DNA from: Thauera humireducens
Lineage (GTDB): Bacteria > Pseudomonadota > Gammaproteobacteria > Burkholderiales > Rhodocyclaceae
Direction: 5' to 3'
Assembly (NCBI RefSeq): GCF_001051995.2
Contig: NZ_CP014646.1
Span: 3,100,001 to 3,164,000 of the forward strand
DNA length: 64,000 bases
Shown here: positions 4,718-19,107 of the stretch, piece after piece
Numbering within the stretch: the stretch's first letter is position 1
Layout: every line of letters begins with the position of its first letter
The notes under the pieces: model-generated
Database searches by the model: none
The model's input: only the letters and a program-made list of their open reading frames with translations
Told to the model about the DNA's origin: nothing
Program-made: the position numbers and the translations under genes

Positions 4718-7291
4718 TCAGCTGGCCTTGCGGGACGGGCTGCGTTTCTTTGCCGGGGCTTTGGTGGCTTCGGCATCGGCGTCGCCTTCGGCGGAAGCCT
4801 TTGCCGCCGGTGCCTTGCCGGCGGCTTTCGGCGCCTTGGCCTCGAACTCGAAGCCGACCTTGCCGTCCTTGCCACGTACCAGGAAGGCCGAGAACTTGCG
4901 TCGCGTGCGCGCCGACACGAAGCCCTTCAGCAGATCGGTCTTGCCTTCGGTCAGCAGCTTGGCCATCTGCTCGCGCTCGATCGGCTGCTGCAGGATGATC
5001 TTGCCGGAGCGGAAATCGCAGCTCTTGCCGGGGCCGACCGACTTTTCGCAGACGTAGGCCATGCCATGCTCGAACACGCCACTGGCGCACTTCGGGCAGG
5101 CGCCGACCGATGCCTGGGCGGAGAAGTCGACCGCCTCGGCTTCCTCGCCCTCCTTCGGTTGGCCGAAGTCGAAGGCGGGCTGCTTGTCCTCGTTGAGCAC
5201 GATGTCGGCATTGAACAGCCGGCCCATCTTGTTGCGGAAACCGAGCAGCGGGCCGACCTTGCCCTCACGCAGCAGGGTCTCGATCTCGTCGTACTCGAAC
5301 TGGCGGCCGGCGACGATCTTCCAGGTGCTCCAGTCGCAGCTCTGGCAGGCGAACTTCTTGTAGTTCTCCTTCACCACGCCGCCGCACTTCGGGCAGGGTG
5401 TCTGCAGCGTGACGAAGTCGCCCGGCACGGTGTCGGATTCGAAGCGCTTGGCCCGTTCCACGACTTCGCGCGCCATGTCGGCGATTTCCTGCATGAAGGC
5501 TTCGCGGCTGAGTTCGCCGCGCTCCATGCGCGACAGCTTGTACTCCCAGCCGCCGGTCAGTTCGGGCGAAGTCAGCGCGGTGACGCCCAGGCCTTTCAGC
5601 AGGGTGATCAGCGAGAAGGCCTTGGCGCTCGGGATCAGCTCGCGACCGTCACGGTGGATGTACTGCTCGGTGATCAGGCCTTCGATGATCTGTGCGCGGG
5701 TGGCCGGGGTGCCCAGGCCGCGTTCGGCCATCGCCGCGCGCAGCTCCTCGTCGTCGACCATCTTGCCCGCGCCTTCCATCGCCGACAGCAGGGTGGCTTC
5801 GTTGAAGCGCGCCGGCGGCTTGGTCTGCAGCGACTTCAGCAGGATGTCGTCGGTGGTGATGGTTTCGCCCTGCTTCACTGCCACCAGTTGCGGGCCGCCG
5901 CCCTCCTTGGCGTCTTTCTCGTCACTGGCGGCTTCCTTGCCGTAGATGCTGAGCCAGCCCGGATTGACCAGCACCTTGCCTTCAGTCTTGAAGGCCTCGC
6001 CTTCGACGCGGGTGATGCGGGTGGTGATCTGATATTCGGCTGCCGGGTAGAACACCGCCAGGAAACGCTTGGTGACCAGGTCGTAGATCTTCTGCTCGGC
6101 TTCGGACAGGCTCTTGGGCAGCGTCCCGGTCGGAATGATCGCGAAGTGATCGGAGATCTTGGCGTTGTTGAAGATGCGCTTGTTCGGCTTCACCCAGCCC
6201 TGCTTGACGATCTCGTTGGCAAACGGCGCGTACTGGCCGGGCAGGTTGCGGATGACCTCGTTGACCGTCGGGATGTAGTCCTCGGGCAGGGCGCGGGCAT
6301 CGGTACGCGGGTAGGTCAGCACCTTGTGCTTTTCGTACAGCGCCTGCGCCAGTTGCAGCGTGACACGGGCCGAGAAGCCGAAGCGGCCGTTGGCCTCGCG
6401 CTGCAGGCTGGTGAGGTCGAAGAGCAGCGGCGACAACTGGGTGGATGGCTTGGCTTCCTCGGTGACCACGCCCGGCTTGCCCTCGCACTTGGTACGGATG
6501 GCCTCGGCCTGGGCCTTGTCCCAGATGCGGAATGCGGTCGCGTGCTCGTCGCCTTCGGGCTTCCTGAACTTCTCGTCGAACCAGCGCCCGGGATAATGTC
6601 CGGCCGCCGCGGCAAAGTCGGCTTCCAGCTCCCAGTAGTCGCGCGGCTTGAACTTGCGGATCTTGTCTTCGCGCTCGACCACCAGGGCCAGCGTCGGTGT
6701 CTGCACGCGGCCGACCGTCGTCAGGTGGAAGCCGCCGGTCTTGGAGTTGAACGCGGTCATTGCCCGCGTGCCGTTGATGCCGATCAGCCAGTCCGATTCG
6801 GCGCGGCAGATCGCGGCGTTGCGCAGGCCTTCGACGTCCTGGGCGGCACGCAGGTGAGCGAAGCCGTCGCGGATCGCCTGCGCAGTCATCGACTGCAGCC
6901 ACAGGCGCTGCATCGGCTTCTTGGTGCCGGCGTGCTGGGCGATGAAGTTGAAGATCAGCTCGCCCTCGCGCCCCGCGTCACAGGCATTGATGAGGCCGGT
7001 GACGTCCTTGCGCTTGATCAGCCGGGTCAGCAGCTTGAGCCGGTCCTCTGTCTTCTCGATCGGCCTGACCGCGAAGTGCGGCGGGATGACCGGGAGGTGG
7101 GCGAAGGTCCACTTGCCGCGCTTGACCTCGAATTCCTCGGGCACGGCGAGCTCGAGAAGGTGGCCGACGGCCGACGACAGCACGTAGTCGTCGGACTCGT
7201 AGTAGTCCTTCTCCTTGGTGAAGCCGCCCAGCGCACGGGCGATGTCCTGTGCGACGGAGGGCTTTTCCGCGATGATCAGTTGCTTGCTCAT
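4718..7291 (-). CDS. topB: DNA topoisomerase III
   Basis: Type IA topoisomerase that decatenates and relaxes DNA through a transient 5'-phosphotyrosine. 857 aa, starting at ATG 7291. The N-terminal TOPRIM domain shows IIAEKPSVAQDIA and the acidic DAGREGE motif near residue 106. The active-site tyrosine lies in VLTYPRTDARALPEDY. Two cysteine clusters near the C-terminus (CPKCGGVVKENYKKFACQSC and CPKC...C...C) look like zinc ribbons, followed by an Ala/Lys-rich basic tail. The protein is about 200 residues longer than E. coli TopB because of this C-terminal region. It is the last gene of the leftward run that also holds smg and dprA. Confidence 0.96.
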   Translation of the reverse strand: MSKQLIIAEKPSVAQDIARALGGFTKEKDYYESDDYVLSSAVGHLLELAVPEEFEVKRGKWTFAHLPVIPPHFAVRPIEKTEDRLKLLTRLIKRKDVTGLINACDAGREGELIFNFIAQHAGTKKPMQRLWLQSMTAQAIRDGFAHLRAAQDVEGLRNAAICRAESDWLIGINGTRAMTAFNSKTGGFHLTTVGRVQTPTLALVVEREDKIRKFKPRDYWELEADFAAAAGHYPGRWFDEKFRKPEGDEHATAFRIWDKAQAEAIRTKCEGKPGVVTEEAKPSTQLSPLLFDLTSLQREANGRFGFSARVTLQLAQALYEKHKVLTYPRTDARALPEDYIPTVNEVIRNLPGQYAPFANEIVKQGWVKPNKRIFNNAKISDHFAIIPTGTLPKSLSEAEQKIYDLVTKRFLAVFYPAAEYQITTRITRVEGEAFKTEGKVLVNPGWLSIYGKEAASDEKDAKEGGGPQLVAVKQGETITTDDILLKSLQTKPPARFNEATLLSAMEGAGKMVDDEELRAAMAERGLGTPATRAQIIEGLITEQYIHRDGRELIPSAKAFSLITLLKGLGVTALTSPELTGGWEYKLSRMERGELSREAFMQEIADMAREVVERAKRFESDTVPGDFVTLQTPCPKCGGVVKENYKKFACQSCDWSTWKIVAGRQFEYDEIETLLREGKVGPLLGFRNKMGRLFNADIVLNEDKQPAFDFGQPKEGEEAEAVDFSAQASVGACPKCASGVFEHGMAYVCEKSVGPGKSCDFRSGKIILQQPIEREQMAKLLTEGKTDLLKGFVSARTRRKFSAFLVRGKDGKVGFEFEAKAPKAAGKAPAAKASAEGDADAEATKAPAKKRSPSRKAS

Positions 7292-7403
7292 GCTCTCTGG
7301 CTATGGGGCGGGCTGGCGGGTGCCAGCCTCGGGAGTGGTGGGGCTGAAGCCGCGGATGATAAAGACGCCGCGTTGCGCCTTGCAAGCTGTGCCGGTGCCT
7401 GCG

Positions 7404-7874
7404 TCAGTGCAGGGTCGGCGCGTAATCCCAGTCGTCGTCCTCGCTCAGGAGTTCGTCGACCATCAGGGTGTCGATCGGGTGTTCCTGCTGCCACAGCACC
7501 ATCAGTACGATGACCTTCAACCGGTTGAGCGTGATGTTGAAGCCTTCCAGCGCCATGGCGCGCTCGATGATGAGTTCGCGATGTACGCCTTCGAGCACGC
7601 CGGCACTTTCCATCAGGGTGAGGAATCCACGGCAGTCGGGACTGAGGTGGGCCTGTTCCTGCTCGGAGTAGATGCGGATCGAGCCTTCATCCGGTGCCGT
7701 GCCCGGGTGGATCTCGCGCGCCACACGCCGCAGTCCGGCCAGCCATTCCAGCGCTTCGGAGATCTCCTCGTCCTCGAAACCCGCTGCTGACAGCTTGCGG
7801 GCGAGCAGGTCGGACTCCGGGCAGGCGTCGGCGTGGATGTAGCTTTCGAACAGATAGACGAGGATGTCGAACAA
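7404..7874 (-). CDS. smg: Smg protein (DUF494 family)
   Basis: Small acidic protein of the Smg/DUF494 family, 156 aa, function not established; it is regularly found beside dprA. It opens MFDILVYLFESYIHADACP and ends in an acidic stretch (LLSEDDDWDY). The start must be a TTG (7872-7874), because no ATG or GTG precedes the conserved FDILVYLFE; a GAGAGG ribosome-binding site lies five bases upstream. It lies between dprA (upstream) and topB (downstream), and the rare start codon may keep its level low. Confidence 0.92.
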   Translation of the reverse strand: MFDILVYLFESYIHADACPESDLLARKLSAAGFEDEEISEALEWLAGLRRVAREIHPGTAPDEGSIRIYSEQEQAHLSPDCRGFLTLMESAGVLEGVHRELIIERAMALEGFNITLNRLKVIVLMVLWQQEHPIDTLMVDELLSEDDDWDYAPTLH

Positions 7875-7950
7875 ATCGGCCTCTCAGGGGAACGGCGGGA
7901 ATGCGGCAGGCGATGCGCAGGGCGCATGCGGGGAGGTTGGAGTGCGGTTC

Positions 7951-9087
7951 TCAGGCGCGCTGGAAGCGTCCGCCCGGCAAACGGGTGACGTGTCCGTCCA
8001 GCTCCAGCGGCAGCAGAATGGCGTAGAGGGCATCGACCGTCAAGCCGCAACGGGCAGACAGGGTATCGAGGTCGACGGGGTCGTGCCCGACCGCAGCGAG
8101 CATTCGTGTCGCTTCGTCGTCGATGGGAAGGCGGGCCTGGGCAGGCGTGCGGGTGGCGCCGGGCAGGCTGCCTTCGGTATCCGCCGCGGCCTGCGTCGAC
8201 CAGCCTGGGCGTCCGCGCAGTTCCTCGATGATGTCCTCCGCGGTCTCGACCAGCTTGGCACCGTCGCGGATCAGGCGATGGCAGCCGCGCGCGAGCGGGG
8301 AATGGATCGAGCCCGGGATGGCGAAGACTTCGCGCCCGCACTCGGTGGCCAGGCGCGCGGTGATCAGCGAACCGCTGTTCAGCGCAGCCTCGATGACCAG
8401 GACGCCCTGTGCCAGTCCGGCGATGATGCGGTTGCGGCGCGGGAAGTTGTGCTGCAGCGGCGGCGTGCCGAGTGGAAACTCGCTGACGATCGCGCCGCAG
8501 GTCGCAATCTCGCGTGCGAGAGCCGCATTGCGGGCGGGGTAGATGCGGTCGATGCCCGTGCCGATGACGGCGATGGTGCGACCCGCAGCGGGGCCGGCAG
8601 TGAGGGCACCGCGATGTGCTGCGGCGTCGATGCCGGCCGCGAGCCCGCTGACGATGGTGAGGCCGCGGGCGGCGAGGTCGAGTGAAAAGGCCTCGGCGTT
8701 GGCCATGCCTTGTGCCGTCGCGCTGCGTGCACCGACGATGGCCAGTCCCGGATGCTGCAGCAGGGCCGGATCGCCCTTCACGAAGAGCATCACCGGCGGA
8801 TCGGGAATCTCGAGGAGGCTGCGCGGATAGGCCTCGTCCGCGAGGGTCAGGACGTGGCTGCCGGGCTCGGCTGCCCAGGCGAGCGCCGGGTCGATGCGGT
8901 CGCGCACCGGGGGAGCGAGCAGCGCGTCTGCCAGCTTGCCGCCGATGACGTCCGCGACGCTGCTGCGCCCCGCGGCAAAGATGTGCTGCGGAAGTCCGAA
9001 GGCCGCAAGCAGGCTGCGCTGTCTTTCGGCCCCCAGTCCGGGTACCGAGGTCAGGCGCAGCCAGTCTTCGAGATCGTCCGCGGCCAA
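7951..9087 (-). CDS. dprA: DprA, DNA-processing protein for natural transformation
   Basis: DprA/Smf loads RecA on incoming single-stranded DNA during natural transformation. 378 aa, with an N-terminal helical region (DWLRLTSVPGLG), the Rossmann-type DNA-binding core (LAIVGARSATAQGM, VSGLAAGIDAAAHRGAL, TIAVIGTGIDRIYPARN, EFPLGTPPLQHNFPRRNRIIAGL), and a C-terminal winged-helix domain (residues about 310-378, LSARCGLTVDALYAIL). The open frame begins at a TTG (9085-9087); no better start was found before the conserved region, so the exact N-terminus is uncertain. It is 39 bp downstream of the LysM gene and likely cotranscribed with it and smg. Confidence 0.95.
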   Translation of the reverse strand: MAADDLEDWLRLTSVPGLGAERQRSLLAAFGLPQHIFAAGRSSVADVIGGKLADALLAPPVRDRIDPALAWAAEPGSHVLTLADEAYPRSLLEIPDPPVMLFVKGDPALLQHPGLAIVGARSATAQGMANAEAFSLDLAARGLTIVSGLAAGIDAAAHRGALTAGPAAGRTIAVIGTGIDRIYPARNAALAREIATCGAIVSEFPLGTPPLQHNFPRRNRIIAGLAQGVLVIEAALNSGSLITARLATECGREVFAIPGSIHSPLARGCHRLIRDGAKLVETAEDIIEELRGRPGWSTQAAADTEGSLPGATRTPAQARLPIDDEATRMLAAVGHDPVDLDTLSARCGLTVDALYAILLPLELDGHVTRLPGGRFQRA

Positions 9088-12786: not shown

Positions 12787-15700
12787 TCAGCGCGCCGGCG
12801 ACGCTTCGTCTCCCGCTGCGGGTGCGGCACGGGAGATCGTCTCGAGTCGCGCTTCCTTGCCGTCGATGCTGCGCACATGCACGTCGATCTGGTTGAAGGC
12901 GATGTCGATGCCGTGCTCCCTGAACAGTGCATCGATGCGGCGGTTGATCTCGTCGATAGCGAGGTTGCGGTCCGCGAGTTCGCGCACGTGGATGCGCAGC
13001 TCGTGGTCCAGTGTGCTGGCGCCGAAGGCGAGGAACAGCGCCATCGGCGCCGGTTCCTTCAGCACGCGCGGGTTCTCGTCGGCGATCTGGAGCAGCAGCC
13101 TGCGCGTCAGCGCCAGATCGGAGCCGTAGGCGACGCCCACCTTCACCGTCACCCGCGTCACCGTGTCGGTCAGCGACCAGTTCACCAACTGGCCGGTGAC
13201 GAAGGTCTTGTTGGGGACGATGATCTCCTTGCGGTCGAAGTCGGTGATCGTGGTGGCGCGGATCTGGATGCGGCTGACCGTGCCCGACAGGTTGCCGATG
13301 GTGACGACGTCGCCGATGCGCACCGGGCGCTCGAAGAGGATGATCAGACCGGATATGAAGTTGGCGAAGATCTCCTGCAGACCGAAGCCCAGACCCACCG
13401 ACAGTGCCGCCACCAGCCACTGCAGCTTGTCCCAGCTCACGCCCAGCGTACCCAGCGTGGCGACGATGCCGATGCCGGCGATGAGATAGGACAGCAGCGT
13501 GGTGATGGCGTAGGCGCTACCCTGCGCCAGCTTGATGCGCGACAGCACCAGGACTTCGAGCAGGCCGGGCAGGTTGCTGGCCAGCGCGAACGCGAGCGCG
13601 GCGATGACCAGCGCGCCTAACACATCGCGCAGGCTGATCGGCACCAGGGTCGCGGTGGCGCCGGTGCCGCTGGCGTACTCGTACAGAGTGATGTTGTCGA
13701 GGTAGGCGAAGACCGTGATCAGGTCGGCCCACACCCAGTACAGGCCGCCCAGCAGCGCGCCGAGCAGGCCGAGGCGGATCAGGCGCAGCGACTGCTGGCT
13801 GACCTTCTCGACATCGATCACCGGCCGTTCGAGGATCTCGGGGTCGCTCGCGACCTCAAGCACGGCTTCGCGCTCGGCTGCCTCGCGCCGTTCGACCGCT
13901 CGCTTGTGTTCCAGACGCCGCGCCGCCACGGCCAGGCCGCGCACCGCAGTGGCCTCGGCCATACGCCAGACGATGAGCACGAACAGCGTGTCGATCAGGC
14001 GGCCGGTGAGCTTCAGCGCGGTGTAGTAGTAGCCCATCGCCAGCGCACCGATCAGCGCCAGCGGCATCAGCGCCAGCACGAGGCCGATCACCACACGCAA
14101 GGGCGACGGTGCCGCATCATGCGGGCGCTGGTGCGACAGCAGGCGGCCCATCAGCCAGGCCATCACGGCATAGCTGGCGAGCAGGGTCAGCATCCCCAGC
14201 ACGTCGTCCGCGAGTCGTTCGGGCTGATGTTCGGCGATGGCGACGACCAGCACCACCGCCAGCACGACCAGACCGAGGCGGCTGAGCCGGCGGTGCAGGG
14301 CGCGGATCAGCTCGGGCCGCCACTCGAAGTGGCGTTCGGCCACACCACCGGGCGACAGCACGCGGTAGGCGGTGTAGAACACCAGCCAGGCCTCGGCCAT
14401 GTCGATCAGGCCGATGCCCAGTGCCATGTTCTGACCGCGTCCGTCCATCTGCAGGGCGAGCCCGGCAAGACCCAGCAGCAGGCTCACCGGCAGGGCCAGC
14501 AGCAGGTTGAGGAGGATGGCCAGCGGCGTGTGATATTGCGTGTCGCGGCGCACGTAGCCGATGTCGGCGTGCAGGCTGGCGAGCTTGTCGCGCAGCCAGC
14601 GCCGGCGCACCAGCAGCAGCACCGAGAGCAGCAGTACCGGCAGCAGCACCAAGGGGCGTGCCAGCAAGCCTTCCCACAATTGCGTGGTCACGGCCCGCCA
14701 GGGCATGGCCGCGATCTGCTGCTCGAGCGCCGCGGGCAGGCTCTTCACCCATTCGAGATCGAGCGGGCGGTTGCTGGGCACCCAGAAGATCTGTTCATCG
14801 AGTGTCGCGCGCAAGCGGTCGGCGGTCGCCTGCAGCTGGGTCTCGTGCAGTTGCAGGCTGACTGATTCACCGAGGACGGCATTGAGCTCGTGGTTCAGGC
14901 GCTCCAGGAGTTCTGCCCGTGTTTCGAGCAAGGCAAGCAGGGCTTCGCGTTCGCTGTTGTCGGGCGGCGCGGGCTGCCCGGCCAGCAGTGTGTCGAGGTA
15001 GGCCGCCGGGCTGCCCAGGGCCTCGCGCTGCTTGTTGAGCTCGAACTGGTAGAGGCGGACGTCGGCGATCTGGTGGGTCAGTTCAGTGTCGACGCTCGGT
15101 ACGGGCAGCGCACGACGCTGCTCGTTGAGGATGCGCGACAACAGCGGGCTGCCCTGCAGGATGTTGATCTGTTCGGCGATCAGGTTGCTGTTGCGGTTGA
15201 GGGCGTCGAGGCGCTGGCGGGTGTCGAGGTTGCGCTGCTTGAGTACGGCGAGTTGCTCGGTGGCACGCAGCAGGTAGGCCGACAGCGTCTGGTTGGTGGC
15301 GGTCTCGCGCGCCAGCAGGCTGCCGTCGGCCGCCGCGGTTTCCTGGCCAGCCAGCTTTTGCACCGTTTGCAGGGTCTGTGCCCGCCGGCGTTCGCCGATC
15401 GCGGCCTGGATGACCTCCATGTCACGTTCGATCTCGTCCAGCTCGAAGGTGGCCAGTTCGCGCTGCGCCTGGGCAAGTTCCTGCAATTGGCTGCTGCCCG
15501 ACAGTTCCGCCAGCTGCAGTGCGGCGCGCGCATCGAGGGCATGCCATTCGGCCGCCAGGGACTCGCGGCGTTCGGCGCTGAGCGCACGGTTCGCCTCGCG
15601 ACCGCTGCGCAACGCGGATTCGATGGCCTGCATGCGGGCCTGCGTCGCAGCGATCTCGGACTGGGTACGTTCGGTGCTGGCGCGCAGGCTGAGGGCGCTG

Positions 15701-16104
15701 GCCTGGTCGAGTTCGGCACGCCAGCGCGCGAGTTCGGCGTTGGCCTGTGCCAGCCGGGCCTCGAGTGCGTCCAGCGTCTCTGTCGGCGGGATGGTGAGCG
15801 CGGCGGGTGGCGTCGATTGCTGGCGCGCAAGCTTGTCGCGTGCCTCCTTGATGAGCGCTGGTGCCTGGTCGAGCTGCCGGCGCAGGTCCGCGAGCCGGCG
15901 CCGGGCGTCCTCCGCCGCAGCGAGCTGGGCGAGCGCCTGCTGCAGGTCCTGCTGTGCGGCGCGCAACTCGGCTTCGGGCAGTTGGCGTTCGCTGAGCGTG
16001 TCGAGCCGTGCCTGCAATTCGCTGGCGACGGGGCGGGTTGCCGGCTGGGCGAAGGCGATCAGGGGCAGGAGCAGCAGAAGGAGCAGGATGCGCAGTCGAA
16101 GCAT
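12787..16104 (-). CDS. Large MscS-family mechanosensitive channel (MscK/MscM type)
   Basis: Predicted 1105-aa inner-membrane channel that opens under membrane tension in hypo-osmotic shock. It has a signal peptide (MLRLRILLLLLLLPLIAFAQ), a long periplasmic coiled-coil region rich in Gln, Ala, Glu and Arg (about residues 25-480), several transmembrane helices (about 500-860) and a C-terminal MscS domain. In the MscS domain the Ala/Gly-packed pore helix reads VAALSVGLGFGLQEIFANFISGL, followed by RPVRIGDVVTIG in the beta domain. The start is the ATG at 16104; the frame opens at a TTG three codons earlier. It may correspond to MscK (KefA) or MscM (YjeP); family length and layout fit either. Confidence 0.92.
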   Translation of the reverse strand: MLRLRILLLLLLLPLIAFAQPATRPVASELQARLDTLSERQLPEAELRAAQQDLQQALAQLAAAEDARRRLADLRRQLDQAPALIKEARDKLARQQSTPPAALTIPPTETLDALEARLAQANAELARWRAELDQASALSLRASTERTQSEIAATQARMQAIESALRSGREANRALSAERRESLAAEWHALDARAALQLAELSGSSQLQELAQAQRELATFELDEIERDMEVIQAAIGERRRAQTLQTVQKLAGQETAAADGSLLARETATNQTLSAYLLRATEQLAVLKQRNLDTRQRLDALNRNSNLIAEQINILQGSPLLSRILNEQRRALPVPSVDTELTHQIADVRLYQFELNKQREALGSPAAYLDTLLAGQPAPPDNSEREALLALLETRAELLERLNHELNAVLGESVSLQLHETQLQATADRLRATLDEQIFWVPSNRPLDLEWVKSLPAALEQQIAAMPWRAVTTQLWEGLLARPLVLLPVLLLSVLLLVRRRWLRDKLASLHADIGYVRRDTQYHTPLAILLNLLLALPVSLLLGLAGLALQMDGRGQNMALGIGLIDMAEAWLVFYTAYRVLSPGGVAERHFEWRPELIRALHRRLSRLGLVVLAVVLVVAIAEHQPERLADDVLGMLTLLASYAVMAWLMGRLLSHQRPHDAAPSPLRVVIGLVLALMPLALIGALAMGYYYTALKLTGRLIDTLFVLIVWRMAEATAVRGLAVAARRLEHKRAVERREAAEREAVLEVASDPEILERPVIDVEKVSQQSLRLIRLGLLGALLGGLYWVWADLITVFAYLDNITLYEYASGTGATATLVPISLRDVLGALVIAALAFALASNLPGLLEVLVLSRIKLAQGSAYAITTLLSYLIAGIGIVATLGTLGVSWDKLQWLVAALSVGLGFGLQEIFANFISGLIILFERPVRIGDVVTIGNLSGTVSRIQIRATTITDFDRKEIIVPNKTFVTGQLVNWSLTDTVTRVTVKVGVAYGSDLALTRRLLLQIADENPRVLKEPAPMALFLAFGASTLDHELRIHVRELADRNLAIDEINRRIDALFREHGIDIAFNQIDVHVRSIDGKEARLETISRAAPAAGDEASPAR

Positions 16105-16242
16105 CGGGGGCAAGGCCTGGGGTGGGAAGCCGGAAGCGTGGGAATGCGCAGTTTACCCACGGCGGTTATGCTTAGGGCAGGCGCTGCAGCGCGATGCACC
16201 TGCCGCATCGCATCCGGGGCAGTGCGTGAAGGGGAGCGGCCC

Positions 16243-18210
16243 ATGAAGCCTCATGTCTTCGTCGCCATGCCGTTCGGCATCAAGCCGGGTCACGACGGCG
16301 CGCCGATCGACTTCAACCGCATCTACGACGATTACCTGGTCCCTGCGCTGGCGGCAGCGGGGCTGGAGGCGTTTCGCGTCGAGCAGGAACTGCGTGCCGG
16401 AGACATCCGCACCGACCTGTTCCAGGAGTTGCTGCTCGCCGACCTGGTGGTGGCCGACCTCACGCTCGACGATCCGAATGTCTGGTACGAGCTCGGGGTG
16501 CGCCACGCCTTGCGCGCGCACGGCGTGATCCTGGTGCAGTGGCCGCGGCCGGCGCAGCCCTTCGACCGCTACACCGAGCACAAGCTGCATTACCGGCTGA
16601 AGGACGGCCGGCCTGACCCCGCGACACTGGCCGAGGATCGCGCGGCCCTGACCCGCATGGCGGAGGCGGCGCTGCAGGCCTGGCAGGACCGCCAGCGGAG
16701 TCCGGTGTACAGCCTGCTGCCGCACCTGCGGGAGCCGGACTGGAAAACCCTTCTGCCGGGGGTGCGCAACGCGTTCACCGTCGCCTGCGAAGAATGGATG
16801 CGCCGCATGGCGGTGGCGCGGCAGAACGGCCGTGCCGGTGACATCCTGGTACTGGCCGACGAGATGCCGACGCGCGCACTGCGTATCGAGGCCCGCCACG
16901 CGGCGGGTGAAGTCCTGCTCAAGCTGCGCCATCACGATTTTGCCCTCGAGCAGTTCGAGGCCGTGCTCGCGCTCGATGCCGGATACAAGCCGGCGCGCGA
17001 ACGGAAGGCTGTCTGCCTCGGCCGCCTGGGGCGCCTGGAGGAAGCGCGCGAATGGGTGCGCCGGCTGAGCGAGACGTATCCGCACGATGCCGGGGTGTGG
17101 GCCTTGTCAGGCCGCATCGAGACGGACAACTGGGTGAGCCGCTGGTGGCGAGACGGCGCGTCTGCGGCGGAACTGCGCGGGGCCGCGGAGTCCGAAGATG
17201 CTGCGCTGGCCGAGGCGATCGAACCGTATCGCAAAGCCTTCGTCATTGATCCCGCGCACCATTGTTCCGGCGTCAAGGCGCTCATGCTGCTGAGATTGCG
17301 ACGCCATCTGGGGGGCGACGGCGAGCCGGCTCCGATCGACGACCTCGTCGGCGGGGTGCGATGGGCGGCGCTGAGTGCGCAGGAACGCAACCCCCAGGAC
17401 TGCAGGGCCCGCGCGAGTCATGCCGCGTTGTGCCTGCTGGTGGAACCGCTCGAGACGGTTTGCCGGGCGTACGGCGCCACGGCCGCGGCCGCCAACGGCG
17501 ACTGGATTGCGCTCGCCTCCAGCCGCCAGACCTTGTGCCTGCTGCGCGACCTCGAATTCCGCCCGCGCGAGACGGCGGCGGCGCTCGGGATCATCGACCG
17601 CGAGATCGCCCGCAGCACGCCGCCCTTGCAGCCGCGGCGCGTGTTCCTGTTCAGCGGGCACATGATCGACGCCCCCGATCGTGCCAGCCCGCGCTTTCCG
17701 CCGGACAAGGAAGGGATCGCGGCACGGAGGATCGCGGCGGCGCTCGATGCGCTCGGTGCGGGCCCCGGCGACCTGGCGCTGGCCCAGGGTGCCAGCGGGG
17801 GCGACCTGCTGTTTCTCGAGGCCTGCAAGGTGCGCGGCGTGCGCCTGCAGTTGATGCTGCCCTTTGCCGAGCCGGCGTTCATCGAGCGCTCGGTCCGGCC
17901 CGCCACGGACGGCGCGCGCTGGTGCGCGCGTTATCGCGCCTTGCGTGCCGGGTTGCCGGATGCGCCGCGCACGATGCCGGCTGAACTGGGCCCGCTGCCC
18001 AGGATCAGCCCCACGGCGTGGATGGATCCCTACGAGCGCTGCAACCGCTGGCTGTTGTACACGGCCCTGGCGCTGGGGATCGACCGCGTGCATTTCCTCT
18101 GCCTGTGGAACGGCGACGGTGGCGACGGCTCCGGCGGTACGGCGCACATGTACGAGGAGGTCAGGCGCAGGACGGGCCGCGTCACCTGGATCGACGCCCG
18201 AACGCTGTGA
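16243..18210 (+). CDS. Three-part protein: TIR/deoxyribosyltransferase-like + helical repeats + SLOG-like domain
   Basis: 655 aa, no signal peptide, so cytoplasmic. Residues 1-100 form a Rossmann-like domain: FVAMPFG at 6-12, FNRIYDDYLVPAL, then VVADLT and NVWYELG with E83 where TIR and nucleoside 2-deoxyribosyltransferase folds carry their catalytic glutamate. Residues about 165-450 are Ala/Arg/Leu-rich helices like TPRs (resembling the so-called TRAFs-binding/DUF4071 region). Residues 467-655 resemble SLOG nucleotide-binding domains: VFLFSGH (467-473), GASGGD (516-521), LPF, and GDGSGGT (627-633). The ATG has an AAGGGGAG ribosome-binding site. It is a single-gene unit divergent from the channel gene. 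Function unknown; a nucleotide-sensing or NAD-type effector role in stress or phage defence is inference from the folds. Confidence 0.75.
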   Translation: MKPHVFVAMPFGIKPGHDGAPIDFNRIYDDYLVPALAAAGLEAFRVEQELRAGDIRTDLFQELLLADLVVADLTLDDPNVWYELGVRHALRAHGVILVQWPRPAQPFDRYTEHKLHYRLKDGRPDPATLAEDRAALTRMAEAALQAWQDRQRSPVYSLLPHLREPDWKTLLPGVRNAFTVACEEWMRRMAVARQNGRAGDILVLADEMPTRALRIEARHAAGEVLLKLRHHDFALEQFEAVLALDAGYKPARERKAVCLGRLGRLEEAREWVRRLSETYPHDAGVWALSGRIETDNWVSRWWRDGASAAELRGAAESEDAALAEAIEPYRKAFVIDPAHHCSGVKALMLLRLRRHLGGDGEPAPIDDLVGGVRWAALSAQERNPQDCRARASHAALCLLVEPLETVCRAYGATAAAANGDWIALASSRQTLCLLRDLEFRPRETAAALGIIDREIARSTPPLQPRRVFLFSGHMIDAPDRASPRFPPDKEGIAARRIAAALDALGAGPGDLALAQGASGGDLLFLEACKVRGVRLQLMLPFAEPAFIERSVRPATDGARWCARYRALRAGLPDAPRTMPAELGPLPRISPTAWMDPYERCNRWLLYTALALGIDRVHFLCLWNGDGGDGSGGTAHMYEEVRRRTGRVTWIDARTL

Positions 18211-18214
18211 GGAT

Positions 18215-18261
18215 GCGCACGCTGATCGCCGCGCGACACGGACGCACGGCGATCAGTGCGC
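18215..18261. terminator. Inverted repeat between convergent genes
   Basis: A 10-bp perfect stem (CTGATCGCCG at 18222-18231 / CGGCGATCAG at 18247-18256), extended by GCGCA/TGCGC with a one-base bulge. It sits across the gap between the stop at 18210 and the convergent LysR gene and covers that gene's stop codon. There is no clear T run, so its role as a terminator is tentative. Confidence 0.45.
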
Positions 18262-19107
18262 CGTCGCTTGCGTGCGGATGAGGTTGGCGAGTGTCGCCAG
18301 GGCGCGGGGTGGGGCATCGGATCTGCGCGACACCATCCCGGTCGGCACCAGCCCGATCTCGGCCGGCACAGCGCGCATCTCCAGCCGCCGCGCATGCGCC
18401 GACTGCGCGACGATGCGCCGCGGCATAAGTGTCCAGCCCAGGCCGACCGACACGCAGCCGAGGATGCCTTCCAGCGTGCCGAACTCCATCGCGTCGGCCT
18501 GGGCATGGCCTAGCGCGCGCTGCAGGGCGATGGCGCGTGCGCGGTAGGCGCAGCCCTCGCGGAACAGGATCAGCGGACTCAGCACCGGATCGGTGCCGGG
18601 GGCGAAGACCTGCACCAGTTCCTCGACCACCAGTTCGTCGAACTGCAGCGCCGGATGCACCACCGGGCCGGCGACGAAAGCGCAGTCGAGCTTGTGGGCG
18701 AGCACGTGGTCCACCAGCGTTGCGCTGGTATCGGCCCGCACGCGCAGCTCCAGCGCGGGGTGGGTGGCGCGCAGTTCGCTCAGTGCAGGTGGCAGGTAGA
18801 GCGCGGCGAAGGTCTCCATCGAACCGATGCGCAGTTCGCCCGCCTCGTCGCCGGCCTGGCGCACGGCGGCGACCGTCTGGCGTTCGAGGTTGAGCATGCG
18901 GCGTGCGTAGTCGAGCAGCACCCGACCCGCAGGGGCGAGTTCGACGCCGCGGCCGGAGCGGAAGAACAGCTCGGTGCCCAGTTCCTCCTCCAGCCGGCGG
19001 ATGCGGGCGGTGACGTTGGACTGCACGGTGTTGAGCTTGCGCGAGGCAGCGAGGATGCCGCCTTCGTCGACGACGGCTTCGAAGGTGCGCAGGGCGAGGA
19101 GCTCCAT
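18253..19107 (-). CDS. LysR-family transcriptional regulator
   Basis: 284 aa. N-terminal winged helix-turn-helix (residues 1-60, TFEAVVDEGGILAASRKLNTVQSNVTARI) followed by a substrate-binding-like effector domain (about 88-280, ELRIGSMETFAALYLPP, LDCAFVAGPVV). It is divergent from the MFS transporter gene at 19213 with 105 bp between starts, the usual layout for a LysR regulator controlling its neighbour. The effector is unknown, but a substrate of that transporter is a reasonable guess. Confidence 0.9.
   Translation of the reverse strand: MELLALRTFEAVVDEGGILAASRKLNTVQSNVTARIRRLEEELGTELFFRSGRGVELAPAGRVLLDYARRMLNLERQTVAAVRQAGDEAGELRIGSMETFAALYLPPALSELRATHPALELRVRADTSATLVDHVLAHKLDCAFVAGPVVHPALQFDELVVEELVQVFAPGTDPVLSPLILFREGCAYRARAIALQRALGHAQADAMEFGTLEGILGCVSVGLGWTLMPRRIVAQSAHARRLEMRAVPAEIGLVPTGMVSRRSDAPPRALATLANLIRTQATAH

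Follow-up and report, generated by a model that had tools for sequence, protein, structure and literature searches.

The question raised by this locus is what a single gene, coding for a Rossmann-like domain, a TPR-S superhelix and a SLOG domain in one chain, does between a channel gene and a regulator gene of Thauera humireducens. On balance, the protein encoded in the window (the whole stretch of 64,000 nucleotides that was analysed) appeared somewhat likely to act, in one polypeptide, as sensor and transducer of a bacterial conflict system of the TPR-S type, for defence or cell death. Comparison of loci suggests that it probably helps to switch on cell suicide or defence, because related genes often adjoin lipase, protease or pore-forming genes. 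The features concerned are as follows (window positions, except for the last).

12787-16113, minus strand: MscS-type channel gene, neighbour
16230..16236, plus strand: likely ribosome-binding site aggggag, 6 nt ahead of the ATG, read directly
16243..18210, plus strand: whole gene, NDT/DNPH1-like domain - TPR-S - YpsA-type SLOG (655 aa plus stop)
16243..16674, plus strand: Rossmann-like domain of the NDT/DNPH1 (DrHyd) kind, residues 1-144
16417..16419, plus strand: codon 59, Leu (Met in most family members), opposite the acid Asp80 of DNPH1; Asp not conserved
16489..16491, plus strand: codon of E83, aligned with the nucleophile Glu of DNPH1
16765..17628, plus strand: TPR superhelix, residues 175-462 (AlphaFold model and structural alignment)
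16936..17292, plus strand: core of Pfam TPR-S (PF20308), residues 232-350, E 6.8e-14, above the cut-off
17632..18207, plus strand: SLOG domain of the YpsA type, residues 464-655
18253-19107, minus strand: LysR regulator gene, neighbour
G000:C1:3035245-3041238 (L086 9246-15239), minus strand: 1997-aa lipase-CHAT-TPR-S-like protein, encoded at a distance of 75 kb from the window gene

The complete genome comprises 4.17 Mb and carries the gene as a single copy. Its dN/dS over the whole length was 0.28-0.33 against three same-genus orthologues, and the reading frame is therefore considered to encode a selected protein under purifying selection. All the motifs that had been read in the preliminary description (VFVAMPFG, NVWYELG with E83, GASGGD and GDGSGGT) were found in the 655-residue translation. 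A database search gave 2047 matches at E<=1e-3 (7996 candidates scored), NCBIfam offered only generic TPR-type names below cut-off, and a scan for promoters and terminators detected neither. The frame stays open for 451 codons further upstream (14890-18210, plus strand), antisense to the MscS channel gene, which is an effect of G+C content and not a longer protein.

The long helical middle noted earlier proved to be a TPR domain bearing the TPR-S signature at residues 232-350, with a score of 52.7 bits (curated cut-off 27.6). The proposed SLOG-like C-terminal domain was borne out as well: residues 464-655 have a SLOG fold of the YpsA type, about 15% identical to Bacillus YpsA. Of 45 relatives, only 10 gave even a weak YAcAr Pfam match (best E 0.0056), and the SLOG domain of the window protein gave none. 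The NDT/DNPH1 (DrHyd) superfamily fold is present at the N-terminus, where E83 had been assigned to the place of a catalytic glutamate. In an ungapped alignment this residue falls opposite the nucleophilic Glu of Rcl/DNPH1 (E104 in human DNPH1, according to the available excerpt of PMC10603095), and all 96 full-length homologues (A1) and all 34 N-domains of a more diverse set (A2) have Glu there, in agreement with that assignment. The acid Asp80 of DNPH1 lies 24 residues ahead of the nucleophilic Glu, and the equivalent position 59 was Met in 90, Leu in five and Arg in one of the 96 homologues and Met in 31, Leu in two and Arg in one of the 34 N-domains; Asp occurred there in 0/96 and 0/34. 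Judged from these alignments, the nucleophile Glu is kept in the family and the acid Asp is not, the catalytic Asp80 of human DNPH1 and nucleoside 2-deoxyribosyltransferase being replaced by Met or Leu, and catalysis may therefore be lost or different. Residues 81-90 of the AlphaFold model had a mean pLDDT of only 53. As for TIR profiles, the PADLOC TIR effector gave 19.1 bits on the window protein, and of 34 relatives, eight matched Pfam TIR_2, at best with E 0.022.

TPR-S conflict systems, and a link of TPR-S to the kinase ASK1, were reportedly predicted by Burroughs and Aravind in 2020 in J Bacteriol. The window protein shares with such systems a TPR-S above the Pfam cut-off, Rossmann-like domains of the NAD type and, in its relatives, killing effectors; it differs in being a three-domain single polypeptide with a C-terminal SLOG and without an adjacent effector. 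The likeness to ASK1 (MAP3K5) lies in its N-terminal half, the window protein having a TPR-S superhelix like that of ASK1. Among solved structures, ASK1 was the only strong match of a same-genus NDT-TPR-S protein, L096 (3.8e-7 and 5.2e-7). A profile of 14 NDT-TPR-S proteins, from which the window protein was left out, gave a single continuous alignment with ASK1 that starts within the thioredoxin-binding domain and runs through the last of the TPRs (E 8.3e-16); against an ASK1 structure without the thioredoxin-binding domain the value was 8.8e-13, and the best generic TPR reached 1.1e-7. The profile has YElGvR opposite YHLGVR, so that ASK1 carries His at the catalytic Glu position. With the window protein as sole query, ASK1 was not found by sequence; in the full model, residues 7-460 align with ASK1 95-641 (rmsd 10.7). 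Unlike ASK1, the window protein keeps the Glu and has a SLOG domain, and no kinase domain was among its Pfam matches.

The immediate neighbours of the window gene code for the MscS channel, the LysR regulator and an MFS protein, and no effector gene lies beside it; no SIR2 or macro effector was found there either, and the same-genus copies whose surroundings were read also lacked an adjacent effector. The earlier designation as a lone gene is accordingly right for this window, with its MscS and LysR flanks, and does not extend to relatives, in which effector neighbours are common; overall, the preliminary interpretation that one polypeptide could both sense a nucleotide and act on NAD or a nucleotide was partly supported. 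Patatin was considered as the effector in this genome and rejected, since none of its four patatin genes is near the window gene.

Among 84,980 species genomes scanned, 67 related loci were found and then classified by HMM. Intact fused genes were present at 17 and broken or cut ones at three, separate SLOG and NDT-TPR-S genes at 20, and longer SLOG proteins at 12 (11 with TPR-S). At the remaining 15, SLOG and effector genes occurred without an intact N-domain gene, and the N-terminal part is therefore not always needed. Three of four long TPR-S/SLOG proteins scanned had a cyclase domain (L053, L059 and L064; L062 had none), and both cyanobacterial proteins scanned (L017 and L018) had SLATT_1 in front. 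In relatives, the parts of the window protein are thus either fused or encoded by separate neighbouring genes, near patatin, caspase or lipase-CHAT genes. A patatin phospholipase gene lay within 300 bp at 24 of the 67 loci (same strand in 23), ten of which represent one Bradyrhizobium arrangement, whereas the other 14 come, judged from the record titles, from several phyla. A patatin, caspase or lipase-CHAT gene was within 3 kb at 34 loci; by hand estimate, a patatin neighbour within 3 kb would arise by chance in about 0.6% of cases (four patatins in 4.17 Mb). Some effectors bear a TPR-S of their own, such as patatin in L023, trypsin in L102 and lipase-CHAT in L002. The neighbouring patatin of relatives, not the window gene, resembles the CapV-type patatin effector of CBASS, with hits to PADLOC phospholipase effectors (2e-48); the window protein itself was hit by no CD-NTase model, and there is no CD-NTase among its immediate neighbours. 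The L102 fusion of TPR-S with a trypsin-like peptidase (5903-8859) lies directly upstream of an NDT-TPR-S gene, and in L103 (316-1731) SLOG is fused to a glycosyl hydrolase 108 of the lysozyme type as well as to a peptidoglycan-binding domain.

Because no effector is adjacent in this genome, the window protein would act in trans. The best candidate partner is the 1997-aa protein, which contains DUF7379, an alpha/beta-hydrolase (PGAP1/LCAT-like) region and a CHAT protease, together with a sub-cut-off TPR-S match (24.4 bits vs 27.6); this unlinked gene is perhaps the effector partner here. Within the genus, 24 of 29 genomes had the lipase-CHAT gene, including 18 of 19 with a SLOG part versus 6 of 10 without (Fisher p 0.036, ancestry ignored); the six genomes that have it without any SLOG part argue against the partnership. 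It adjoined the free SLOG gene in eight of the 13 genomes with a free SLOG (one partial), and in two other genomes it lay 54-58 kb from the fused gene. The fused gene occurred in six of the 29 genomes and never together with free SLOG (0/29, expected 2.7, p 0.017, ancestry ignored). Shared ancestry is disregarded in these same-genus tests, and seven of the 29 have a completeness below 90%. In G022 and G015 the MscS channel and LysR genes flank an empty site, a SLOG-only gene stood beside the MscS channel gene in G013, in which LysR was missing, and in three other genomes the fused gene was at other sites; family genes were absent from the sites in G018 and G023 (L134 and L135).

In the favoured sensor/transducer reading, either the N-terminal domain or a TIR protein from another locus would produce an NAD- or ADP-ribose-derived nucleotide, and the SLOG and/or TPR-S parts would bind this NAD-type nucleotide. 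Binding might then cause a conformational change or oligomerisation that licenses the effector acting with the window protein in trans.

Plasmids bear on a different possibility. Among 72,556 plasmid records, 25 matched and 14 were opened, 11 of which had an annotated NDT-TPR-S-type gene (six confirmed by HMM). A TIR gene was annotated within 6 kb at 10 of these 11 loci and within 300 bp at six, two of which share the same protein, and all three plasmid TIR genes scanned were ThsB_TIR. It is conceivable, though we give it only a minority chance, that both Rossmann-like domains and TPR-S merely bind the signal of a separate TIR protein, as in Thoeris (ThsB TIR plus SLOG-bearing ThsA), with which the window protein shares, by analogy, nucleotide sensing via SLOG. 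The close TIR genes on plasmids favour this passive role, as does ASK1, whose His shows that the fold also has a non-catalytic use. However, the invariant Glu speaks for catalysis, and the four TIR genes of this genome are all at other places, so that the window gene, in contrast to Thoeris, has no TIR neighbour. The plasmid proteins moreover have no SLOG domain, and their identity is only about 25-33%.

Several other features of these elements were recorded. A TIR gene follows the NDT-TPR-S-type gene within 4-6 bp in L142 (2896-4542) and L151 (3971-5621), and such a pair might be a Thoeris-like unit of two genes. DUF4231 was in the stretch shown at four NDT-TPR-S-type loci, and the one scanned was SLATT. 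One further opened locus had a free SLOG gene between TIR genes, and two others were without annotation. In L140 and L145, a cluster of TIR, QueC-like, DNA glycosylase-like, TIR and sugar kinase genes adjoins the NDT-TPR-S gene and a double SLATT protein. No match was found in 50,697 phage records, which is neither for nor against defence.

A doubtful explanation makes the protein a self-contained signal maker, in which an N-terminal NADase or ADP-ribosyl cyclase forms a product read by its own SLOG, alarm and sensor in one, with the loss of NAD harmful in itself. The universal conservation of E83 fits this, and so does the fusion to SLOG, whose Thoeris relatives bind cyclic ADP-ribose isomers according to the accessible portion of PMC9503650. 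On the other hand, Asp80 has given way to Met or Leu, the N-domain gene is not intact at 15 of the 67 SLOG loci, and the effectors of relatives are separate lipases and proteases, so that NAD depletion would not be needed. A housekeeping role in stress or nucleotide metabolism is improbable: it would suit a single monocistronic gene between channel and regulator genes with no effector beside the genus copies read, but not the patchy occurrence in 6/29 genomes, the empty, SLOG-only and alternative sites, or the effector neighbours of relatives.

The sensor/transducer reading can be extended to animals, although this step is tentative and rather unlikely to be right as a whole. The thioredoxin-binding and TPR half of ASK1 might be the animal form of the bacterial NDT-TPR-S unit, its Glu lost to His; the window protein might resemble the ancestor in a single polypeptide, producing or reading a nucleotide derived from NAD, with an added SLOG receptor, and switching on the lipase-CHAT protease whose gene is 75 kb away. 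The ASK1 thioredoxin-binding domain is described as thioredoxin-like in the available part of PMC10972558. The literature search found no paper on the window protein, the architecture of which may still be in print, and no passage of DefensePredictor with SLOG, patatin or DUF4071. As far as seen, a single chain that includes a SLOG receptor and has its candidate lipase-CHAT partner at an unlinked locus represents a variant of the kind said to have been predicted in 2020, and that prediction may or may not extend to the degeneration of the active site in the thioredoxin-binding domain of ASK1. If these readings are true, ASK1's poorly understood thioredoxin-binding domain would be a spent nucleotide-processing domain in origin, and the window protein would offer, in one gene, a compact model for the reading of a nucleotide alarm and its transfer to bacterial lipases, caspases and pores.
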